The notes under the pieces are model-generated. The model ran no database searches, was not told where the DNA came from, and saw nothing but the letters and a program-made list of their open reading frames with translations. Shown one piece after another: positions 1 to 38,579 of a stretch of DNA of 38,579 bases. A program made the position numbers and the translations under genes. The stretch is from an uncultured Alphaproteobacteria bacterium (GTDB lineage Bacteria; Pseudomonadota; Alphaproteobacteria; RF32; CAG-239). Location: positions 1-38,579 of the forward strand of contig CALXVZ010000011.1 of NCBI GenBank assembly GCA_944392235.1, read 5' to 3'. Position 1 is the stretch's first letter. Each line of letters starts with the position of its first letter.

Positions 1-1532
1 GCATTTGCTGCGGCTGCTTTTGCTATAATACCTTTCTGCTTAGCCACTTGCTGAGCTGTTAATTTAACCGTATGCGTCCCCCCTTTTGCCGCTAACTTTT
101 GCTCAAATTTATCCATAGACACAGAAGCCATTTCCTGAAACTGTGTTATTTTTTTCTCTGCATTTTGAGGTAGCGGAGGCAAATCAGATACAGTTTTTCC
201 ATCAACCAAAGGAGGTATTGGAGGAGGCATCTGCATAAAATTCGAAAAATCACGCTTAAAAGCATAAGTTGTCGGCACACGAACATCTATATTACCAAAT
301 ACATCTGTCTGAAAATTCAATTGTTTTTTCAAAGCATCATCAGCATTAGCAAACCTTCGTTTCAAAGACTGCAATACTTCATTATTTAATTCACTATCAT
401 CAAAATTATATTTTAAATGGATACCATCAGCTTGATAACAAACCCCATTTGGCACCCCCAAGGTTGTAATCTGTCCATTTGCCGGATTAGTTACAGGAAA
501 ATTTTCTAAATTATTTACAACCAACACCGCTGAGCGTTCTGTTTTTCGACCACTAGCCTTACGAAAAGCTCTTTCCGCCTCAATTCCGTAAATTTCACTA
601 TACCTTTCCTTAGGTTGTTTATGATAAGCATTATATGCTTTTTTACCAATGCATCTAACTTCATTATAGCTAAAAAGATCATACAAATCTTTTGTCAGTA
701 TCCTTTGAGCCCGTTCTGGAGAAATATAATAATGATAATTCCATGCCATCAATTCATGAAAATCTTTTCCTAACTCAGGTTTTGCAATAACTCCATTAAG
801 AAACGATCGATTTTGCATAGGAGAACTTGTCTGCAAATGAGCATGAGCAGATTCATGGAAAGCAACATGAATAATATCATCTTTTGCATTTTTCTGATTA
901 ATATTAATACGGCAATGCTGATCATCTATGACTATAGCCAAACCATTATAATTTGTAAAATCTTTATCAATTTCAATAACAGATCTCGGATACCTTGGAT
1001 TATGTTGCAAATACTCCGTTTGCTTCAAAGTCAAATCATCAGCAGTTGAAGCCATATTCAAAATTGCATTATCACCATACTCTTTTATCGGCAAAGCAAC
1101 TTTTGCTGCATCGACACCTGTTTCTGCCAATTTAGTCCCCACATCATGAGCCATTTCACGAATAATTTTTAATTGATCTGGTTCAAAGGAATAATTTCTG
1201 TTCAACTTGCACATCATATCTCCAAATTGGTCAAGTTCAACAAAAAGCCTTCTTTTTTGATTTATCTGTATATCCAATAACTGTTGTGCAGTCACATTTT
1301 TCATTTGCTCATCTGATAATTTCAGAAACAGCCCTTTATCAACCATTTCATCAAATTTTTGTTGATAAATTTTATGGAAATCCTCACTTGACACAACGTA
1401 GGCATCTAACTTGCGATAAAAGTTTACCCAATCTTTAGAAGTAAAAGTCTTTATTTCTTTTTCATCCAAATTTTTTGCCCAAGCGACAAAATCTTCACCA
1501 CTTTTAAAATCTGGAATAAAAACAACACTCAT
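1..1532 (-). CDS. Large HExxH-motif protein, 5' part only (510 codons, runs off left edge)
   Basis: The frame stays open from an ATG at 1532 to the window edge, so the C-terminus is missing. GGGG lies about 10 bases upstream of the ATG and can act as ribosome binding site. No signal peptide or membrane segment is visible. Residues 226-230 read HESAH, preceded by a hydrophobic stretch (IIHVAF), which is the usual look of a zinc metallopeptidase helix; a Glu in FHELMAW about 30 residues later could be the third zinc ligand. Further on there is a proline-rich stretch (MPPPIPPL) and a Lys/Ala/Gln-rich end. I do not recognise the family. It could be a cytoplasmic zincin or a secreted effector. It is divergent from polA, with 148 bases between the starts. 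Confidence 0.75.
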   Translation of the reverse strand, partial: MSVVFIPDFKSGEDFVAWAKNLDEKEIKTFTSKDWVNFYRKLDAYVVSSEDFHKIYQQKFDEMVDKGLFLKLSDEQMKNVTAQQLLDIQINQKRRLFVELDQFGDMMCKLNRNYSFEPDQLKIIREMAHDVGTKLAETGVDAAKVALPIKEYGDNAILNMASTADDLTLKQTEYLQHNPRYPRSVIEIDKDFTNYNGLAIVIDDQHCRININQKNAKDDIIHVAFHESAHAHLQTSSPMQNRSFLNGVIAKPELGKDFHELMAWNYHYYISPERAQRILTKDLYDLFSYNEVRCIGKKAYNAYHKQPKERYSEIYGIEAERAFRKASGRKTERSAVLVVNNLENFPVTNPANGQITTLGVPNGVCYQADGIHLKYNFDDSELNNEVLQSLKRRFANADDALKKQLNFQTDVFGNIDVRVPTTYAFKRDFSNFMQMPPPIPPLVDGKTVSDLPPLPQNAEKKITQFQEMASVSMDKFEQKLAAKGGTHTVKLTAQQVAKQKGIIAKAAAAN

Positions 1533-20672: not shown

Positions 20673-20870
20673 TTAAAACAAAAAAAGCAGAATATGAAAT
20701 TCTGCTTTTTTTTTGTGAAAAAGAAATCTTTGATCATCCGAAAGAGATTTCTGTCCTTTAAGACAATTATAAACCTCTTCTAACTCTGTTTTTTTTTTGC
20801 ATTTTTTTCCATAATACATTAATTTTGACAAATCACAATTTTCTTTCGTGAGTGAGTAAATAGACAACAT
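20673..20870 (-). pseudogene. Probable frameshifted C-terminal extension of the upstream repeat protein
   Basis: This frame overlaps the last 52 bases of the 276-aa gene in another phase and reads MLSIYSLTKENCDL, then TELEEVYNC and KSLSDDQRFLFHKKK. That looks like continuation of the pattern in the last part of the upstream protein (FLSRCEPSALSIRERNLL, LLKKDNELIQ). One lost base near 20865-20870 would explain the break. It runs into the terminator hairpin, which encodes its last residues. It has no ribosome binding site of its own. Confidence 0.45.
20679..20714 (-). terminator. Terminator after the repeat protein
   Basis: Perfect AAAAAAGCAGAAT hairpin with a 5-base loop and T-runs on both sides. 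The space from here to lptF (20504) shows nothing else clear; it presumably holds the lptF promoter. Confidence 0.85.
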
Positions 20871-21649
20871 TGGATAAGTTCATTATCCTTTTTAAGAAGC
20901 AACAAATTTCGCTCTCTAATACTCAAAGCACTAGGTTCACAACGACTCAAGAAACTATTTAAGAGTTTTTTAGAGGCATACTTCAAGACATACTCTACCA
21001 TCTGATGATTAAAAATCTGCAATTTTTCAAAACGCACCCAATCATCATCATTGATAATAGCTTTAAGTTCTGAAAAATCATTACCTGAATCAACGGCATC
21101 ATCTTCATGTTTTTCTGGCAAAGAAGTTTTAACACTGCCAATTTTAGCATCATCATTGATAATAGCTTTAAGTTCTGAAAAATCATTACCTGAATCAACG
21201 GCATCATCTTCATGTTTCTCTGGCAAAGAAGCTTTAATACCAACAATTTTAGCATCATCCTTGAATGAACGCAGAACTTTAACAACCGACATTGTCTTAT
21301 CCGCTTCAGAAAGAGGATTTTTAATCACTCTACCATCTGCCAGAAGGACAAATGGAAATCCGAGAGCTTTTCCTTGTTCATTCAAATATTTCAGAAACTT
21401 ATCACCAGATGGCAATCCATCAGTAATATCTTTCACCGCCGAAGCAAAAGAAGATAACGAACCTTTATCTTTAGAAGGTTTTAAGACTTTTGCAACAGCA
21501 TTGTGCTTCCCATCAGAAGAAACCAACCCTTTTCCGCATTCACCATTAGCAAATATCATAAAAGGATAACCAAGGCTACTTCCACATGTATCCAAATAAC
21601 CCAAAAACTGTTCCGCTAAAACGGAAACATCGACATTATAATTTTCCAT
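20819..21649 (-). CDS. Unknown repeat-containing protein, 276 aa
   Basis: No family recognised, no signal peptide, no membrane helix. The N-terminal half holds two related units of about 50 residues: FLGYLDTCGSSLGYPFMIFA...VAKVLKPSKD and FLKYLNEQGKALGFPFVLLA...VVKVLRSFKD. Residues from about 131 to 200 are two near-identical 35-residue units (SLPEKHEDDAVDSGNDFSEL) caused by a 105-base tandem duplication. The last part is helical (VEYVLKYASKKLLNSFLSR) and probably belongs to a longer repeat region cut by a frameshift. It has its own promoter and terminator. The start has no Shine-Dalgarno and is preceded by the A/T-rich leader also seen in the J-domain genes. A 6-codon upstream reading frame (21656-21636) overlaps the start. 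Confidence 0.7.
   Translation of the reverse strand: MENYNVDVSVLAEQFLGYLDTCGSSLGYPFMIFANGECGKGLVSSDGKHNAVAKVLKPSKDKGSLSSFASAVKDITDGLPSGDKFLKYLNEQGKALGFPFVLLADGRVIKNPLSEADKTMSVVKVLRSFKDDAKIVGIKASLPEKHEDDAVDSGNDFSELKAIINDDAKIGSVKTSLPEKHEDDAVDSGNDFSELKAIINDDDWVRFEKLQIFNHQMVEYVLKYASKKLLNSFLSRCEPSALSIRERNLLLLKKDNELIQCCLFTHSRKKIVICQN
21051..21260 (-). repeat. 105-base in-frame tandem duplication
   Basis: Two adjacent copies (about 21051-21155 and 21156-21260) differ at a few bases only and encode 35 residues each. The phase is kept, so the protein grows by one unit. Confidence 0.9.
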
Positions 21650-21791: not shown

Positions 21792-22436
21792 CTATTTAGC
21801 AACAATAACCATAGCCTCACGCAAGATACGGTCATGAATTGTATAACCAGCTTGCAATTCCGCCAAAATAACACCACTTTTAGCTTTTTTATCTTCAATT
21901 TCCTGGACTACGCGTTCAAAATTAGGATCAAATTTTTCACCAATATGATTAAAGCGTCTAACTCCAAACTTTTCAAAAACTTTAGTTAACTCATTCTGAG
22001 TTAATTCAACACCTTTTAAAAGTTCGGCACAAGATTCAGCATTATCAGCCATAGCGGCAATAGCTCTTTCAAGATTATCAGCAACACCTAAGAGTTCTTT
22101 AGCAAAAGAGGATACGGCAAATTTAATCGTTTTCTCATTTTCCTGATGAGCTCTTTTCTTCATATTATCCATTTCGGCATACAAACGGATATAATCATCT
22201 TTAAGTTTTGCAAAATCCTTTTCTAATTTATCATGCCCAGCATCTTGAGCCGCATCATTTTCAGCATTTTGAGCTTTATCTTTAAGATTATCTTCTGCAG
22301 AAGTTTTCTCTTCTGAAGTTTCATTTTTTACATTTTCCTGAGATAAATCATCTTCATATGTTTCATTTTTTACATTTTCCTGAGATAAATCATCTTCATA
22401 TGTTTCGTTTTTCAGATTTTCATTTTCGGCACTCAT
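21792..22436 (-). CDS. grpE: GrpE nucleotide exchange factor
   Basis: GrpE releases ADP from DnaK. The core (about 68-214) has the long coiled coil DYIRLYAEMDNMKKRAHQE, the four-helix segment FAKELLGVADNLERAI and the C-terminal beta-wing with FDPNFERVVQEI and GYTIHDRILREAMV. The first 60 residues are acidic, probably disordered and repeated: the 14-residue unit ENVKNETYEDDLSQ occurs twice with flanking partial copies. Neither hrcA nor dnaK is adjacent. GAGG precedes the ATG. A palindrome over a predicted promoter -10 lies upstream. The J-domain array in this window is a possible functional partner through DnaK. Confidence 0.95.
   Translation of the reverse strand: MSAENENLKNETYEDDLSQENVKNETYEDDLSQENVKNETSEEKTSAEDNLKDKAQNAENDAAQDAGHDKLEKDFAKLKDDYIRLYAEMDNMKKRAHQENEKTIKFAVSSFAKELLGVADNLERAIAAMADNAESCAELLKGVELTQNELTKVFEKFGVRRFNHIGEKFDPNFERVVQEIEDKKAKSGVILAELQAGYTIHDRILREAMVIVAK
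22317..22421 (-). repeat. 42-base tandem repeat in the grpE 5' end
   Basis: Two and a half copies of a 42-base unit encode residues 6-40 of GrpE. Copies are almost identical, so copy number may vary between strains. Confidence 0.85.
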
Positions 22437-32375: not shown

Positions 32376-34241
32376 ATGAAACCTATGAAAAGTATGATAT
32401 TTTGGCTTGTTGCCTTTATTCTGCTAAGCGTATTTATGAATAATTTCACACCGACTGCACGTCAAAATGCGGCAGCACCGATAGCCTTTTCAGAATTTAT
32501 GGATAAAGCAGAAAATAATCAAGTTGAATCAGTAACCATCATTGGAAACGACATCTATGGCAACTACAATAATGGCACAAAGTTCAAGACATATGCTCCA
32601 TTTGATCCGAGCATGGTTGAGACTTTACGCAAACTTGGCGTAAAAATAGAAGCGCGCCCAATAGATACATCTGAAAGCACATTTTGGGGAATAGTCATTT
32701 CATGGTTTCCGATGTTATTGTTAATCGGCGTTTGGATATTTTTCATGCGTCAAGCCAATTCCGGAAACAATAAAGCGATGAGTTTCGGTAAATCCAGAGC
32801 AAAACTGATAGAAAACACCAAGAAAGTGACTTTCGCAGATGTTGCCGGAGCAGATGAAAGCAAACAAGAGTTAGAAGAAATCATTGAATTTTTAAAAGAC
32901 CCACAAAAATTTCAACGCTTAGGCGGAAAAATTCCAAGAGGTGTATTACTTGTAGGCCCTCCGGGAACTGGTAAAACCCTATTAGCCAAAGCTGTCGCTG
33001 GAGAAGCTAATGTTCCATTCTTTTCCATATCAGGCTCAGACTTCGTAGAAATGTTCGTAGGCGTTGGAGCATCACGAGTAAGAGACATGTTCGCTCAAGC
33101 AAAAAAGAATGCCCCATGTTTGTTATTCATTGATGAAATCGACGCGGTTGGTCGCCATCGTGGAGCGGGCTTAGGTGGCGGCAATGACGAAAGAGAACAA
33201 ACCTTAAACCAATTATTGGTTGAGATGGATGGTTTTGATGCGAATGAAAACGTCATATTGATAGCCGCTACTAACCGCCCGGATGTATTAGACCCTGCAT
33301 TATTACGTCCCGGACGTTTCGATAGACAAGTAACCGTAAATAATCCGGATGTAAAAGGTCGTGAAGAAATTTTGAAAGTTCACACCCGTAAAGTTCCATT
33401 AGCCAAGGATGTAAACTTAAGCGTTGTTGCACGCGGCACACCTGGATTTTCGGGAGCAGATTTAGCAAACTTAGTCAATGAAGCCGCATTATTAGCCGCT
33501 CGTAAGAACAAATTAAAAGTAAGTTCTGCAGACTTTGATGCAGCCAAAGACAAAGTTCTAATGGGCAACGAACGTAAATCCATGGCAATGGATGAAAAAG
33601 AAAAGACATTGACAGCTTATCATGAAGCCGGTCACGCAATTTGTTCATTAAACGTAAAAGATACAGATCCAATTCATAAAGCAACAATTATTCCGAGAGG
33701 ACGAGCTTTAGGTATGGTTCAGCAATTACCGGAAAAGGACAAATACTCATATACCCGCGCCCAAATGCTATCACGCTTAGCAATATTAATGGGAGGACGC
33801 GTCGCAGAAGAATTAAAATTCGGCTATGACGCAGTAACCTCGGGCGCCTCATCAGATATCAACGCAGCAACCAATCTAGCAAGAGCAATGGTAACCGAAT
33901 GGGGAATGAGCGATATTTTAGGACCGATTCGTTATTCAGAAAACTCCAATGAAGTTTTCTTAGGACGTTCCGTTACTCAAAATCAGAATATGAGTGAAGA
34001 AACAGCTCGCTTAGTAGATGCAGAAATCAAAAGACTAGTAACCGATGGTTACGAGGAAGCCAAAAAGATTTTGCAAAAACACAAGCAAGATTGGGAAACT
34101 TTAGCTCAAGCATTAATGGAATACGAAACTTTAACCGGCGATGAAATCAAAGATGTTCTAGCAGGAAAAGTTATTGATAAAACCAAAGATGCACCTGTTC
34201 CGGAAGAGAAACGCACAAAAGCATCTGTGCCGGAATTATAG
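32376..34241 (+). CDS. ftsH: ATP-dependent zinc metalloprotease FtsH
   Basis: FtsH is the membrane AAA+ protease that degrades misassembled membrane proteins and regulators such as sigma32 and LpxC. Two membrane helices (about 5-24 and 106-126) flank a periplasmic domain. The AAA domain has Walker A GPPGTGKT from Gly194, Walker [12 protein letters not shown] and the arginine-containing RPGRFDRQV region; the zinc site is HEAGH at 416-420. 621 aa is normal. GAGGG lies rather far (12 bases) from the ATG. tilS and folP/glmM, its common neighbours in proteobacteria, are absent; it is monocistronic. Confidence 0.97.
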
Positions 34242-34311: not shown

Positions 34312-34340
34312 AAAAACGCCCCTCTTTAAGGGACGTTTTT
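34312..34340 (-). terminator. Terminator of J-domain unit 1
   Basis: Minus-strand AAAAACG(T)CCC pairs with GGG(G)CGTTTTT around a 7-base loop. The same hairpin recurs after each J-domain gene. Confidence 0.85.
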
Positions 34341-34359
34341 GATTGTTTTGTTGAGCTGT

Positions 34360-35775
34360 TTAGCTTCTTGCTAAGCCTTCAAGATATGCATAATATCTTT
34401 GGACTTTTTGGAACATCTCAACAGCATTCGGTTCTTTGTTTCTATCCGGATGATACTTTTGCACCAAGCGTCTGTAGGCTTGTTTCAAGCTTTCTACTGT
34501 CAAGGTTTCTGACGTTAAGCCGAATAACCTAAAGGCTTCATTGTTTTCTTCCTTTGCCACATATGGCTGAATATCGCGAACTTCCTTGAAACTTGCAAAC
34601 TCTGGTCTTGTTTCTGCTAACTTGCGACATAACTCCAGCACTTGAGCTCTCGATAAGTTTCTGGTTTTAGAGTATTTGCTCAATATTTGATACTGTATCG
34701 GTGTTACGAATACACCATTGAAATCTATCAGTAAGTCACCGAAATCTGTCTTTTCTTTTGAATATTTTTGACGCTGTTTTCGTGACGGACGTTGATATGC
34801 TTTCGCTTTTCTCTCAGCATCGGCATAGAAATCTTTTCGCCAATTTTTGTAGCCACTCTTTTCAAGCTTCAATTTTAAACGAGCTAATAAAACATTTGTT
34901 TCTTCAGGACTATCAAAGAAATCTTGCAAGAATTCATTCACATACTTTTCACAGTTATGTATAATCTCTTGCTGTTTTAAAGCTTCTTGACGAAGTCTTT
35001 CTTCTTCAATCTTGGCTCGTTGTCTATTAAAATGTTTTTGCTTAGCATACAGGAAGATATAAATTGCCCATGCGGCACAAACTATATATTTTAGCACCTT
35101 TTGTTGAAAGGACGTCCTTTCTTTAACATATTGCATAGTCGCCTCAATGATGTTTTTACTTTTGTTAAAACTTGGATAGAGTACATACCCATAACAGCTT
35201 TTAATAATTCCACCTTCTTTAGTCGATCCGTCACGCACGCGATCTGCTAACTCATAAAATTGCTTATCTCCATCTTCATTCATTATAACGCATGCTCCCG
35301 CATCATATTGAATTATTCGCCCATAGTCGACTAACTCTCGTTGAGGATCTAATACTCTAAATATAACAAAAATAATAGATACAACTATGGCAAATCCTAA
35401 AGATAGAATTCGTGGATTGACTGCTTTACGTTCACTTAAGTCAATAACATATAGAAAAAAGAACACTGAAAAAAGTAATACCCAGACAAATTTAAGAAAA
35501 CTCATAATAGCTATTGCCATAGATTTATCTACTTGACTTAAAGTGTTATTATCATAAATAAATACTCCTTGCCCTTTTGCTGACAGAGGTTGTTTTAAGT
35601 ATCTATCCATGGTATCTTTTAACTTCAAAGTTACTTCTTGAGGAGAACCGTTTTCCATATAGATTCGCACTGTCGCATAGTTTCCTTCCAGTTTTTCCAA
35701 CTTTCCATAAGCTGTATGCCCATAACTTAGGCTGACTATCATTAGACAGCTCAAAATAAATAATAATCTTTTCAT
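34360..35775 (-). CDS. Membrane protein with C-terminal J domain, array unit 1
   Basis: 471 aa. A signal-like N-terminus (1-19) is followed by a short exported domain with YGKLEKLEGNYATVRIY, helices at about 87-113 and 123-142, a domain with DPQRELVDYGRIIQYD, a third helix at about 228-244, then a cytoplasmic coiled coil (RQRAKIEEERLRQEALKQQE). The C-terminal module starts DFGDLLIDFNGVFVTP and ends in a J domain (about 413-466, [18 protein letters not shown] at 442-444), which should stimulate DnaK ATPase. The start lacks a Shine-Dalgarno and follows the shared A/T-rich leader. The first 130 residues of the C-terminal module are shared with units 2-4. Function unknown: a membrane-tethered DnaK recruiter is the likely type. 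Confidence 0.8.
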   Translation of the reverse strand: MKRLLFILSCLMIVSLSYGHTAYGKLEKLEGNYATVRIYMENGSPQEVTLKLKDTMDRYLKQPLSAKGQGVFIYDNNTLSQVDKSMAIAIMSFLKFVWVLLFSVFFFLYVIDLSERKAVNPRILSLGFAIVVSIIFVIFRVLDPQRELVDYGRIIQYDAGACVIMNEDGDKQFYELADRVRDGSTKEGGIIKSCYGYVLYPSFNKSKNIIEATMQYVKERTSFQQKVLKYIVCAAWAIYIFLYAKQKHFNRQRAKIEEERLRQEALKQQEIIHNCEKYVNEFLQDFFDSPEETNVLLARLKLKLEKSGYKNWRKDFYADAERKAKAYQRPSRKQRQKYSKEKTDFGDLLIDFNGVFVTPIQYQILSKYSKTRNLSRAQVLELCRKLAETRPEFASFKEVRDIQPYVAKEENNEAFRLFGLTSETLTVESLKQAYRRLVQKYHPDRNKEPNAVEMFQKVQRYYAYLEGLARS

Positions 35776-35845
35776 AATCTTTAAATTTTTAGTTCATAAT
35801 AATTTTTAATTGGCTTTATCTTATTCGTTTTACTTCTTTTGTCAA
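35776..35845 (-). promoter_or_regulatory. Promoter and SD-less leader of J-domain unit 1
   Basis: Minus-strand TTGACA (35840-35845), 16-base spacer, TAAGAT, then AATTAAAAATTATTATGAAC and AAAGATTATG. No GGAG-type sequence before the start codon. Confidence 0.55.
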
Positions 35846-35882
35846 GTTTTTTGTGTATTATTTTGACGATTCTATATAAAAG

Positions 35883-35912
35883 AAAAACGCCCCATAATGT
35901 AGGGACGTTTTT
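35883..35912 (-). terminator. Terminator of J-domain unit 2
   Basis: Same AAAAACGTCCC hairpin as in unit 1, with a different loop. Confidence 0.85.
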
Positions 35913-35928
35913 GATTGTTTCGTTGAGA

Positions 35929-36540
35929 TTAGCATCTAGCCAAGCCTTCGAGATAGGCGTGGTATCTCTGGACTTTTTGAAACATTTCTGCCGCATTAGG
36001 CTCTTTGTTTCTATCCGGATGATACTTACGTACCAATCGTCTGTAGGCTTGTTTCAGGCTTTCAATCGTTAAGTTTTCAGCCGTTAAGCCAAACAATTTC
36101 AAAGCTTCGTTGGTTTCTTCCTGTTTCACATAAGGTTGAATACCTCGCTCTTCCTTAAAACTTGCAAACTCCGCCATTGTTTCAGCTAGCTTTCGACACA
36201 ACTCCAACACTTGAACTCTTGATAAAGTTCTGGTTTTAGAGTATTGGCTCAATATTTGATATTGAACTGGTGTTACGAACACTCCATTGAAATCTATCAA
36301 TAAATCGCCAAAGTTACCGAAATCTATTTCAATCTTAACTCGACGTTTCTGAAATTTTTGTTCTTGTCGAAATATTTCTTCTTCAAGCTTAGCTTGGCGT
36401 TTCTGCTTTACTATATCCTTAAACATAGAAAAAAATATATTGTAACAAATAGCTACTCCAAAGAACACTACTGCGAAACCTAGGAAGAAGATTAAAACCA
36501 AAAATAAAATCATAATAATATCACTCACAATCTCAATCAT
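35929..36540 (-). CDS. Short membrane J-domain protein, array unit 2
   Basis: 203 aa. One strong N-terminal membrane helix (about 6-37) replaces the exported and multi-helix part of units 1 and 3; a short Lys/Glu/Gln coiled coil follows (about 45-70), then the shared C-terminal module (FGDLLIDFNGVFVTPVQYQI) and a J domain with HPD at 174-176. The C-terminal module is clearly paralogous to units 1, 3 and 4. The start sits directly after the shared leader, as in the others, so the short form is a stable variant rather than a broken copy. Confidence 0.8.
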   Translation of the reverse strand: MIEIVSDIIMILFLVLIFFLGFAVVFFGVAICYNIFFSMFKDIVKQKRQAKLEEEIFRQEQKFQKRRVKIEIDFGNFGDLLIDFNGVFVTPVQYQILSQYSKTRTLSRVQVLELCRKLAETMAEFASFKEERGIQPYVKQEETNEALKLFGLTAENLTIESLKQAYRRLVRKYHPDRNKEPNAAEMFQKVQRYHAYLEGLARC

Positions 36541-36610
36541 AATCTGTAATTTTTTAGTTCATAATAATTTTTAATTGACTTTATACTATTCCCTTCTTAA
36601 TTTTTGTCAA
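36541..36610 (-). promoter_or_regulatory. Promoter and SD-less leader of J-domain unit 2
   Basis: Minus-strand TTGACA (36605-36610), 16-base spacer, TAGTAT, then AATTAAAAATTATTATGAAC up to the ATG. No Shine-Dalgarno. Confidence 0.55.
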
Positions 36611-36647
36611 GTTTTTTGTGTGTTATTTTGGCGATTCTATATAAAAG

Positions 36648-36677
36648 AAAAACGCCCCTTTTATAAGGGACGTTTTT
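36648..36677 (-). terminator. Terminator of J-domain unit 3
   Basis: Same AAAAACGTCCC hairpin family, 8-base loop. Confidence 0.85.
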
Positions 36678-36697
36678 AACTTGTTTAGTTTTGCTTC

Positions 36698-38242
36698 TCA
36701 GCATCTTATCATACCTTCGAGATATGCATAATATCTTTGGACTTTTTGAAACATCACAACCGCATTGGGCTCTCTGTTTCTATCCGGATGATACTTCTGC
36801 ACCAAGCGTCTGTATGCTTGTCTTAAGCTTTCTGCAGTCAAGGTTTCCGCTGTTAAACCAAATAACCTAAAGGCTTCATTAGTTTCTTCTGCTCTCACAT
36901 ATGGTTGAATATCACGAACTTCCTTGAAACTTGCAAACTCTGGGTTTGTTTTAGCTAACTTGCGACATAACTTCAGCACTTGAGCTCTTGATAAGTTTCT
37001 GGCTTTGGAAATTTTGCTCAATATCTGATACTGAGCCGGTGTTACAAACACTCCTCTGAAATCTATCAATAAATCGCCAAAGTTGTCGAAATCTGTCTCT
37101 TCTGCTGAAGAATTTTGACGTTGTTCTTGTAACGAACGTTGATACTTATTTGCTTTTTTCTTAACATTTGCATAGAAATCTCTTCGCCATTTTTTGTAGC
37201 CACTCTTCTCAAGCTTCAATCTCAAACGGGCTAATAAAACACTCGTTTCTTCAGAACTATCCATAAAATCTCGCCAGAACTCATTCACATACTTTTCACA
37301 GTTTTTGAATAATTCTTGCTGTTTTAGTGCTTCTTGACGAAGTCTTTCTTCTTCAATCTTGGCTCGTTGTTTTTGCATCTTAATGTCTTTAAGCTTACAC
37401 CTAACTTTTATCGCTGTAAACATCAATAACATCAATATTGAAGCTATCATTATATACATAGCAATATTTCGCTGATAACCTGTTTTTTTATTGATGTATT
37501 TCATTGTGGCTTCTACAATGTTTCTACCTTTATCAAAACTTTGATACAGAATGTAGCCACCTCTTACCCGATAAATAAGAGTTTCTTTTGTTCGAATAGT
37601 TAATAGCTTGTAGTAAAAACCTTCTAATGGATCGGCATTATATATTAATTGATAAACAGCATCTCGGAATTTGTAATATTCTTGTTTGCCATCTTCGCTT
37701 TCTATAACACAAGATCTTGTATCCAGATTTATTTGTGATATTTTACCATAAGTTACCACTTCTCGGTGAGGATCACAACTTATTAATAATCCCCATGTTA
37801 AAAAAGACCCGACAGATAATACTTCAAAAAATCTTATCCATTTAGATATCTTTATCGGTTTATTCTTTTTTAGTTTCTCTATGATACTAGGTACCATATC
37901 TACTAAAATAAAATATCCGGCAAAAATGATGATAATACTTATAAATACCCATTTAGCCATACTTACGATATGACCTACAGCTTCTTGGTCAACCTCACTT
38001 AAGCCATCCTTGTATATTACAACTTCTCGTCCATCTGCCACAAGTGGTGTTTTGAGATAACAATCTAAGGTATCTTTTAACTCTATTGTTACTAATTTGG
38101 ACTCTTGAAAATCAGAATGTACATTGACTATTGCTTGGTTACCCTCTAGCTTTTCCAACCTTCCAAAACTATGTTGGGATGGTGCAAAAAAACAAGAACT
38201 GAACATAAAGATACAGCTCAGCATTAATAATAATTTTCTCAT
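36698..38242 (-). CDS. Membrane protein with C-terminal J domain, array unit 3
   Basis: 514 aa, full-length paralog of unit 1. The N-terminus MRKLLLMLSCIFMFSSC is a signal peptide and might be a lipobox with Cys17. FGRLEKLEGNQAIVNV, two helices, DPHREVVTYGKISQIN and CVIESEDGKQEYYKF match unit 1, with an extra segment around residue 215-235. A third helix precedes the coiled coil RAKIEEERLRQEALKQQE, which is identical to unit 1. The shared module and J domain follow, HPD at 485-487. The exported parts have diverged more than the cytoplasmic parts. SD-less start after the shared leader. Confidence 0.8.
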   Translation of the reverse strand: MRKLLLMLSCIFMFSSCFFAPSQHSFGRLEKLEGNQAIVNVHSDFQESKLVTIELKDTLDCYLKTPLVADGREVVIYKDGLSEVDQEAVGHIVSMAKWVFISIIIIFAGYFILVDMVPSIIEKLKKNKPIKISKWIRFFEVLSVGSFLTWGLLISCDPHREVVTYGKISQINLDTRSCVIESEDGKQEYYKFRDAVYQLIYNADPLEGFYYKLLTIRTKETLIYRVRGGYILYQSFDKGRNIVEATMKYINKKTGYQRNIAMYIMIASILMLLMFTAIKVRCKLKDIKMQKQRAKIEEERLRQEALKQQELFKNCEKYVNEFWRDFMDSSEETSVLLARLRLKLEKSGYKKWRRDFYANVKKKANKYQRSLQEQRQNSSAEETDFDNFGDLLIDFRGVFVTPAQYQILSKISKARNLSRAQVLKLCRKLAKTNPEFASFKEVRDIQPYVRAEETNEAFRLFGLTAETLTAESLRQAYRRLVQKYHPDRNREPNAVVMFQKVQRYYAYLEGMIRC

Positions 38243-38312
38243 AATCTTTAATTTTTAAGTTCATAATAATTTTTAATTGACTTTATACTATTCTTGTTTT
38301 TACTTTTGTCAA
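38243..38312 (-). promoter_or_regulatory. Promoter and SD-less leader of J-domain unit 3
   Basis: Minus-strand TTGACA (38307-38312), 16-base spacer, TAGTAT, then AATTAAAAATTATTATGAAC up to the ATG. No Shine-Dalgarno. Confidence 0.55.
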
Positions 38313-38349
38313 GTTTTTTGTGTATTGTTTTGGCAATTCCATATAAAAG

Positions 38350-38377
38350 AAAAACGCCCCTCTTTAAGGACGTTTTT
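38350..38377 (-). terminator. Terminator of J-domain unit 4
   Basis: Same AAAAACGTCC hairpin family as the other units. Confidence 0.8.
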
Positions 38378-38396
38378 ACTTGTTTTGTTGAGCTGT

Positions 38397-38579
38397 TTAG
38401 CTTCTTGCTAAGCCTTCAAGATATGCATAATATCTTTGAACCTTTTGGAACATCTCAACAGCATTCGGTTCTTTGTTTCTATCCGGATGATACTTTTGCA
38501 CCAAGCGTCTGTAGGCTTGTTTCAAGCTTTCTACTGTCAAGGTTTCTGACGTTAAGCCGAATAACCTAAAGGCTTCATT
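38397..38579 (-). CDS. C-terminal J domain of a fourth array unit (5' part outside window)
   Basis: Only the last 60 codons are inside the window. They encode [20 protein letters not shown], the HPD motif in [11 protein letters not shown] and the end YLEGLARS. The protein sequence matches the end of unit 1, and the DNA from 38385 to 38579 differs from 34351-34545 at two positions that I can see. The array therefore continues to the right of the window. Confidence 0.85.

Follow-up and report, generated by a model that had tools for sequence, protein, structure and literature searches.

Positions 34312-38579 of the 38,579-nt contig analysed here (the window; contig C11 of a 31-contig, 1.29-Mb assembly, G000, that is 76.8% complete) carry, on the minus strand, three J-domain genes in full and the final 60 codons of another. 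It is the J-domain proteins that determine where Hsp70 acts, and those of bacterial membranes, DjlA for example, are mostly known from genes present in one copy. We read the tandem genes, with a confidence that is about evenly balanced, as coding for class C J-domain co-chaperones of the inner membrane, an accessory family restricted to its lineage, in which the variable heads set where, or for what, DnaK is recruited. If this is true, a tandem and horizontally exchanged family with one J tail and many heads offers a direct way to ask how head diversity redirects a single DnaK.

Unit 1 (34360..35775, minus strand) was defined by its intact open reading frame (ORF), a Pfam DnaJ (PF00226) match, hydropathy and a structure model. 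It encodes a 471-aa membrane J-domain protein consisting, from the N- to the C-terminus, of a signal-like segment, exported domain 1, the transmembrane helices TM1-TM2, exported domain 2, TM3 with a long coil, a pre-J module and the J domain (34363..34545, minus strand; residues 411-471, with HPD, assigned by Pfam and predicted structure). Unit 3 (36698..38242, minus strand) encodes a 514-aa membrane J-domain protein of the same layout, and unit 2 (35929..36540, minus strand) a 203-aa short form that lacks the exported domains and comprises one membrane helix, a short coil, the pre-J module and the J domain. Unit 4 (38397..38579, minus strand) is cut by the contig end, leaving the J domain. 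The ORFs of units 1-3 are intact and their Pfam DnaJ scores lie over the cut-off (38-43 bits versus 27.8); in a whole-genome scan the unit 4 fragment was above it too. DNA identity to unit 1 over 235 nt at the 3′ end was 73% for unit 2, 80% for unit 3 and 94% for unit 4, far above chance. An earlier note on this DNA, which had described a tandem array of at least four such units, J domains with HPD and a single helix in unit 2, is thereby borne out. Its statement that all four units follow one plan holds for the leader and J module of units 1-3 and for the terminators behind all four, but the plan of unit 4 is not visible in the window. Likewise, the shared module said to start near GDLLIDFNGVF does so in unit 2, whereas the full-length units are alike from further upstream, beginning in the coil (about 35030 in unit 1).

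The J region keeps its HPD and has a predicted fold that matches solved J domains; structure prediction of unit 1 returned the J fold on which the earlier note had made its claim depend. HPD lies between helices II and III, the J domain stands at the extreme C-terminus with the membrane helices before it, and the G/F-rich, zinc-finger and client-binding regions of DnaJ and CbpA are absent, DnaJ (PF00226) being the only Pfam family to pass the cut-off in the window proteins. As modelled, the proteins are class C J-domain proteins with a supported J fold and a cassette-like evolution. Their exported domains are small and beta-rich; domains 1 and 2 were considered as mutual duplicates, and hhalign found no relation between them. 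From the arrangement of the helices, the exported loops are predicted to lie at the inner membrane and not at the cell surface. The only full-length Hsp70 found in G000 (77% complete) was DnaK, in one copy, and it is presumably DnaK that the J-domain tail recruits.

All four units are followed by a terminator made of a hairpin and a T run (34312..34340, 35883..35912, 36648..36677 and 38350..38377 for units 1 to 4, minus strand), in agreement with the common hairpin proposed earlier, and terminator-like sites exceeded the shuffled control (11 versus 2.0, standard deviation 1.5). Before units 1-3 stands a TTGACA-type site; the leaders span 35792..35845 (site at 35845, conserved element 35792-35812), 36557..36610 (conserved element 36557-36577) and 38259..38312 (conserved element 38259-38279), all on the minus strand. 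Promoter-like sites as such were not clearly above the shuffled control (22 versus 14.1, standard deviation 4.4). The conserved element was found between the TTGACA-type site and the start codon in 10 of 10 aligned flanks. Searched with at most 2 mismatches, the leader pattern CAATTAANAATTATTATGAAC occurred 23 times in 6 of 12 genomes (reversed-pattern control, 0), and 18 of these occurrences preceded J-family genes, two of which run off their contigs before reaching the J domain. The other five were one J-less relative, one 131-aa membrane protein without a J domain, one scar in G008 and two contig edges at which the gene is not visible. The 131-aa protein (L243 5292-5687, minus strand, contig C14 of G009) has the family leader and a similar terminator around it and is divergent from dnaJ. 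The cassettes adjoin ftsH and hsp20 in G000, and dnaJ in G009 and G011, the two relatives with which G000 is grouped in one genus. By eye, the cassette leader is unlike the dnaK promoter; a simple heat-shock promoter pattern found no match, not even at dnaK, and is therefore uninformative on heat-shock co-regulation.

Further family members in G000 were located at C12:11356-12858, C13:24475-25875 (truncated at the 5′ end by the contig edge), C6:3-1184 (truncated at the 3′ end) and C6:1340-2326. The genes downstream of the C6 copies (p192, a membrane protein, DHFR and RNase HII) are those found behind ftsH in relatives, and therefore the right end of C11 very probably abuts the left end of C6, a separate contig of the assembly. 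The FtsH site would then carry at least five family genes, with the left end of C6 as the probable 5′ part of unit 4, about 80 codons short of meeting it. A family leader at the left edge of C18, adjoining the hsp20 gene, probably supplies the start that the C13 copy lacks. Counted with both links, G000 has about 7 family genes; the whole-genome scan found 10 J domains, 7 of them in the cassette family. Adjoining the C13 copy is a 462-aa protein (L044 4847-6235, minus strand) with no Pfam family above the cut-off.

The two halves of these genes have different histories. DNA identity between units 1 and 3 (U1 and U3) was 0.86 in the leader, fell to about 0.5 in the middle and returned to 0.78-0.90 from about 35030 onward. 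Synonymous difference in the N half and C half was 0.71/0.35 for U1-U3, 0.75/0.36 for U1-C12 and 0.69/0.32 for U3-C12 (permutation p 0.0002 each), and the order was reversed across species for U1-G009a (0.60/0.80, p 0.006) and U1-G011a (0.60/0.78, p 0.011); for G009a-G011a it was 0.01/0.16 (p 0.0002). The trees of the halves conflict, the groups tested having been picked after the divergence comparison was seen. In the exported-part tree (7 rows; C13, C6b, U2, U4 and G009b omitted for lack of the part), for which the program warned of long branches meeting at U3, U1 grouped with G009a and G011a (100/99) and a joint group of the G000 copies was rejected (p-AU, from the approximately unbiased test, 0.0008). 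In the C-part tree (9 rows; C6a, U4 and G011b omitted for lack of the part), the six G000 copies grouped together (100/99) and U1 with G009a and G011a was rejected (p-AU 0.0001). The J half is thus alike within G000 largely because the copies have been homogenised, as its synonymous sites are far less diverged than those of the exported half. Gene conversion or repeated unequal exchange would be the simplest cause. The family clearly exemplifies apparent domain conservation that stems from homogenised copies in addition to constraint.

These results qualify the earlier view of a nearly fixed J domain beside a diversifying exported part. Within G000 the J domains are indeed 79-98% identical in protein, but synonymous sites are homogenised too, and identity to the G009 and G011 copies is only 56-66%. 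In the pre-J and J parts, nonsynonymous divergence (dN) was well below synonymous divergence (dS) in the informative comparisons. The exported parts are variable beside a constant J module, yet no clear positive selection emerged, dN being below dS in exported-domain comparisons with measurable divergence (e.g. 0.17 versus 0.89 for domain 1 of U1-G009a). Across TM1-TM2, dN equalled or exceeded dS in several pairs, in values that are saturated, badly aligned and unreliable; amino-acid change may be faster in this stretch. Near-identical pairs offered too few changes for such comparisons.

Copy number differs among related genomes, one of the checks proposed earlier, and cassettes are present or absent at fixed sites. 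The gene ftsH (32376..34241, plus strand), the fixed left neighbour of the insertion site in the related genomes examined, had a match in 17 of the 19 genomes of the genus. Among the 9 genomes in which the FtsH site was inspected, G011 has one family gene there and G009 a J-less relative, and no family gene was seen in G017, G003, G008, G006 or G015 (G012 was not assessable). The J-less relative (L047 7041-8237, plus strand, contig C57 of G009) is a 398-aa protein with two coil-side modules and one pre-J module. Between the array and the DHFR gene lies a 192-aa protein (L042 2477-3055, minus strand) that has no Pfam family over the cut-off and diverges fast, with 46% identity between G000 and G009 compared with 97% for FtsH. 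The FMN-reductase site, inspected in 9 of the 12 genomes with an FMN-reductase gene, holds J genes in G000, G009, G011, G003 and G017, none in G006, G014 and G015, and a scar in G008. This scar (L244 about 1380-1500, plus strand, contig C7) consists of the leader and the first ~14 codons of a J216-type gene, followed by unrelated sequence. The full pre-J plus J module was found in 4 of 153 genomes of the taxonomic family, and J-region relatives in 10 of the 153; a class-wide sample of 385 genomes gave 3 matches (G000, G023 and a J-region-only match in G049).

Near-identical family sequences were also found in different species. Neighbouring genes of G009 and G011 have a dS of 0.35-0.51, against 0.00-0.05 for the first ~60% of G009a and G011a, which lie at different sites. 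Between G009 and G003, dS was 1.09 for carbonic anhydrase and 0.03 and 0.01 for the J268 and J216 genes, which lie a few kb from it. A phage or plasmid origin was considered and set aside: viral-contig matches to the C-terminal profile hit the J region only (best 80 of 239 relatives), as did all 39 viral-contig matches of the G023 protein. Unit 1 had no matches in plasmids.

The J genes at the FMN-reductase site are accompanied by a 475-481-aa family, named MEK from its first residues, that belongs to no Pfam family and had no matches in viral contigs or phage records. In the genus, the 7 of 19 genomes with MEK matches are exactly those with the J family (Fisher p 2e-5, not corrected for kinship), the matches in G014 and G015 being weak and on contigs other than those of the J genes. 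In the taxonomic family, 9 of 10 J genomes have a MEK-like match compared with 16 of 143 others (p 2e-7). The 5 genomes with strong full-length MEK all carry J genes at the FMN-reductase site, and in G023, of another genus, a C-terminal MEK remnant lies directly beside the J gene. MEK was not seen at the FtsH site. A partnership of MEK with the J proteins is suggested by these associations. Several genomes of other genera that lack the J family encode distant MEK-core proteins (L175-L178) next to small membrane proteins.

Under the co-chaperone reading, the N-terminal part, with its signal-like segment, small beta-rich exported domains and helices, would place the protein at the inner membrane and contact an outside partner or signal; on the cytoplasmic side, the coil and pre-J module with the C-terminal J domain would bring DnaK to this membrane spot. 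The genes are cassettes, each with its own leader and terminator. We propose that the conserved ends let copies recombine. Such recombination would explain both the homogenised 3′ half within the genome and the fact that heads persist, are swapped or lost, and move between species. That the heads specify the client or signal, and so choose the DnaK target, is our best guess and not a result. Several observations weigh against this reading. Overall confidence in the unit 1 model was low (mean predicted local distance difference test score, pLDDT, 64.3; predicted template-modelling score, pTM, 0.30). TM3 went undetected in unit 1, C12 and C13 at the hydropathy threshold used, so that the topology may not be uniform. 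The exported domains vary, as the earlier note held, but they are not obligatory, being missing from C6b and G009b besides unit 2, and the relative in G009 has no J domain. Two of 8 pairs lacked a significant contrast between halves (C12-C6a, p 0.34; U3-G009a, p 0.16). Finally, 10 of 52 windows of an 18-kb comparison were at least 97% identical, 8 within the J268-J216-MEK block and 2 outside it, and between G011 and G003 all 6 such windows (of 31) fell outside J genes. Since high-identity windows also occur outside J genes, sequence exchange is common in the group; the J268-J216-MEK block is the longest such block in the 18-kb comparison and not the sole one.

A bolder version, which we consider unlikely, sees in the genes a recognition system of many cassettes, exchanged horizontally, whose interchangeable membrane heads and partner protein MEK plug into host DnaK through one homogenised J tail and aim Hsp70 at changing targets, possibly against rivals or phages. 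A conflict or immunity system is a similarly minor possibility: the heads would recognise or neutralise an incoming agent (a rival toxin or phage), MEK would be effector or protected client, and DnaK recruitment the common output. The accessory profile with presence or absence at fixed sites, the near-identical cassettes in different species, the repeated small arrays, the position of MEK beside the J genes in 5 of 5 genomes with J genes at the FMN-reductase site and the MEK remnant in G023 are consistent with this proposal. However, PADLOC gave no convincing match (weak ones only, REase_II at E 0.0043 for unit 2 and pAgo at E 5.6e-5 for the protein of G023), none of the neighbours was recognised as toxin-like, MEK is absent from the FtsH-site array, and MEK-like cores occur in 16 of the 143 genomes of the taxonomic family that lack the J family.

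Mostly neutral duplication and decay, in which a selfish or tolerated tandem family is kept alike by recombination and has little present function, would account for the G008 deletion scar, the J-less G009 relative, the rearranged G023 copy and the empty sites in several relatives. It is rather improbable in view of the intact ORFs of the complete window copies, the retained leader and terminator, and the low dN relative to dS in the pre-J and J parts. Antigenic or contingency variation, where recombination among copies with conserved ends around a hypervariable exported middle alters the exposed part, shares those ends, the variable middle and the recombination with known antigenic-variation cassettes, and agrees with the conserved leader and 3′ half, the conflicting trees and the heads common to other species. 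We regard it as very doubtful, as each complete window unit has its own leader instead of a single expression site with silent copies, the exported domains show no dN above dS in measurable comparisons, and the exported loops are predicted at the inner membrane.

In contrast to families under concerted evolution, in which prokaryotic paralogues are described as resembling each other more inside one genome than between species (PMC6053082), the cassettes behave in this way only in their 3′ half and leader. Among co-chaperones, DjlA (E. coli b0055), of class C, is described as a membrane-linked partner of DnaK whose J domain is C-terminal (PMC8215388, PMC10754441), and the cassette proteins are likewise membrane-linked with a C-terminal J domain. 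The NCBIfam DjlA model matched the three complete window proteins weakly (24-30 bits versus a cut-off of 162), and pairwise BLASTP gave 24% identity over 90 residues (E 9e-6); these matches extend upstream of the J domain, and a very distant kinship may exist. The TerB domain that precedes the J domain of DjlA was not found in the window proteins (Pfam, E up to 1), and the family is therefore not filed under DjlA. A TerB/DjlA origin of the pre-J module was likewise not supported, its profile alone giving E 0.57 with E. coli DjlA. The cassette proteins further differ in their signal-like segment, exported beta-rich domains and several helices, and in being multicopy and horizontally exchanged. 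DjlB and DjlC of E. coli are likewise J-domain proteins at the plasma membrane, described as tail-anchored class C partners of HscC (PMC8215388), but their anchor follows the J domain, whereas the cassette J domain ends the protein. In the incomplete genome of G000, DnaK was the only full-length Hsp70 found. AtcJ of Shewanella oneidensis, given as a 94-aa class C protein that starts with its J domain and ends in a tail for partner binding, is encoded beside its dedicated partner AtcC (PMC6715715); the pair is a possible model for J plus MEK, with the difference that the cassette J domain is C-terminal. No description of such an array was found in the open-access literature searched, and no known family matches the whole architecture, consistent with the earlier remark that no system of this form had been described.

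Two other proteins were noted in the same genome. A separate membrane J-domain protein on contig C3 (L045 5905-7092, plus strand) has membrane helices and its J domain near the N-terminus, and its C-terminal part gives the impression of being SH3-like. Within the window, one 26-residue stretch occurs twice in a 276-aa protein (20819-21649, minus strand) that is encoded upstream of grpE (21792-22436).

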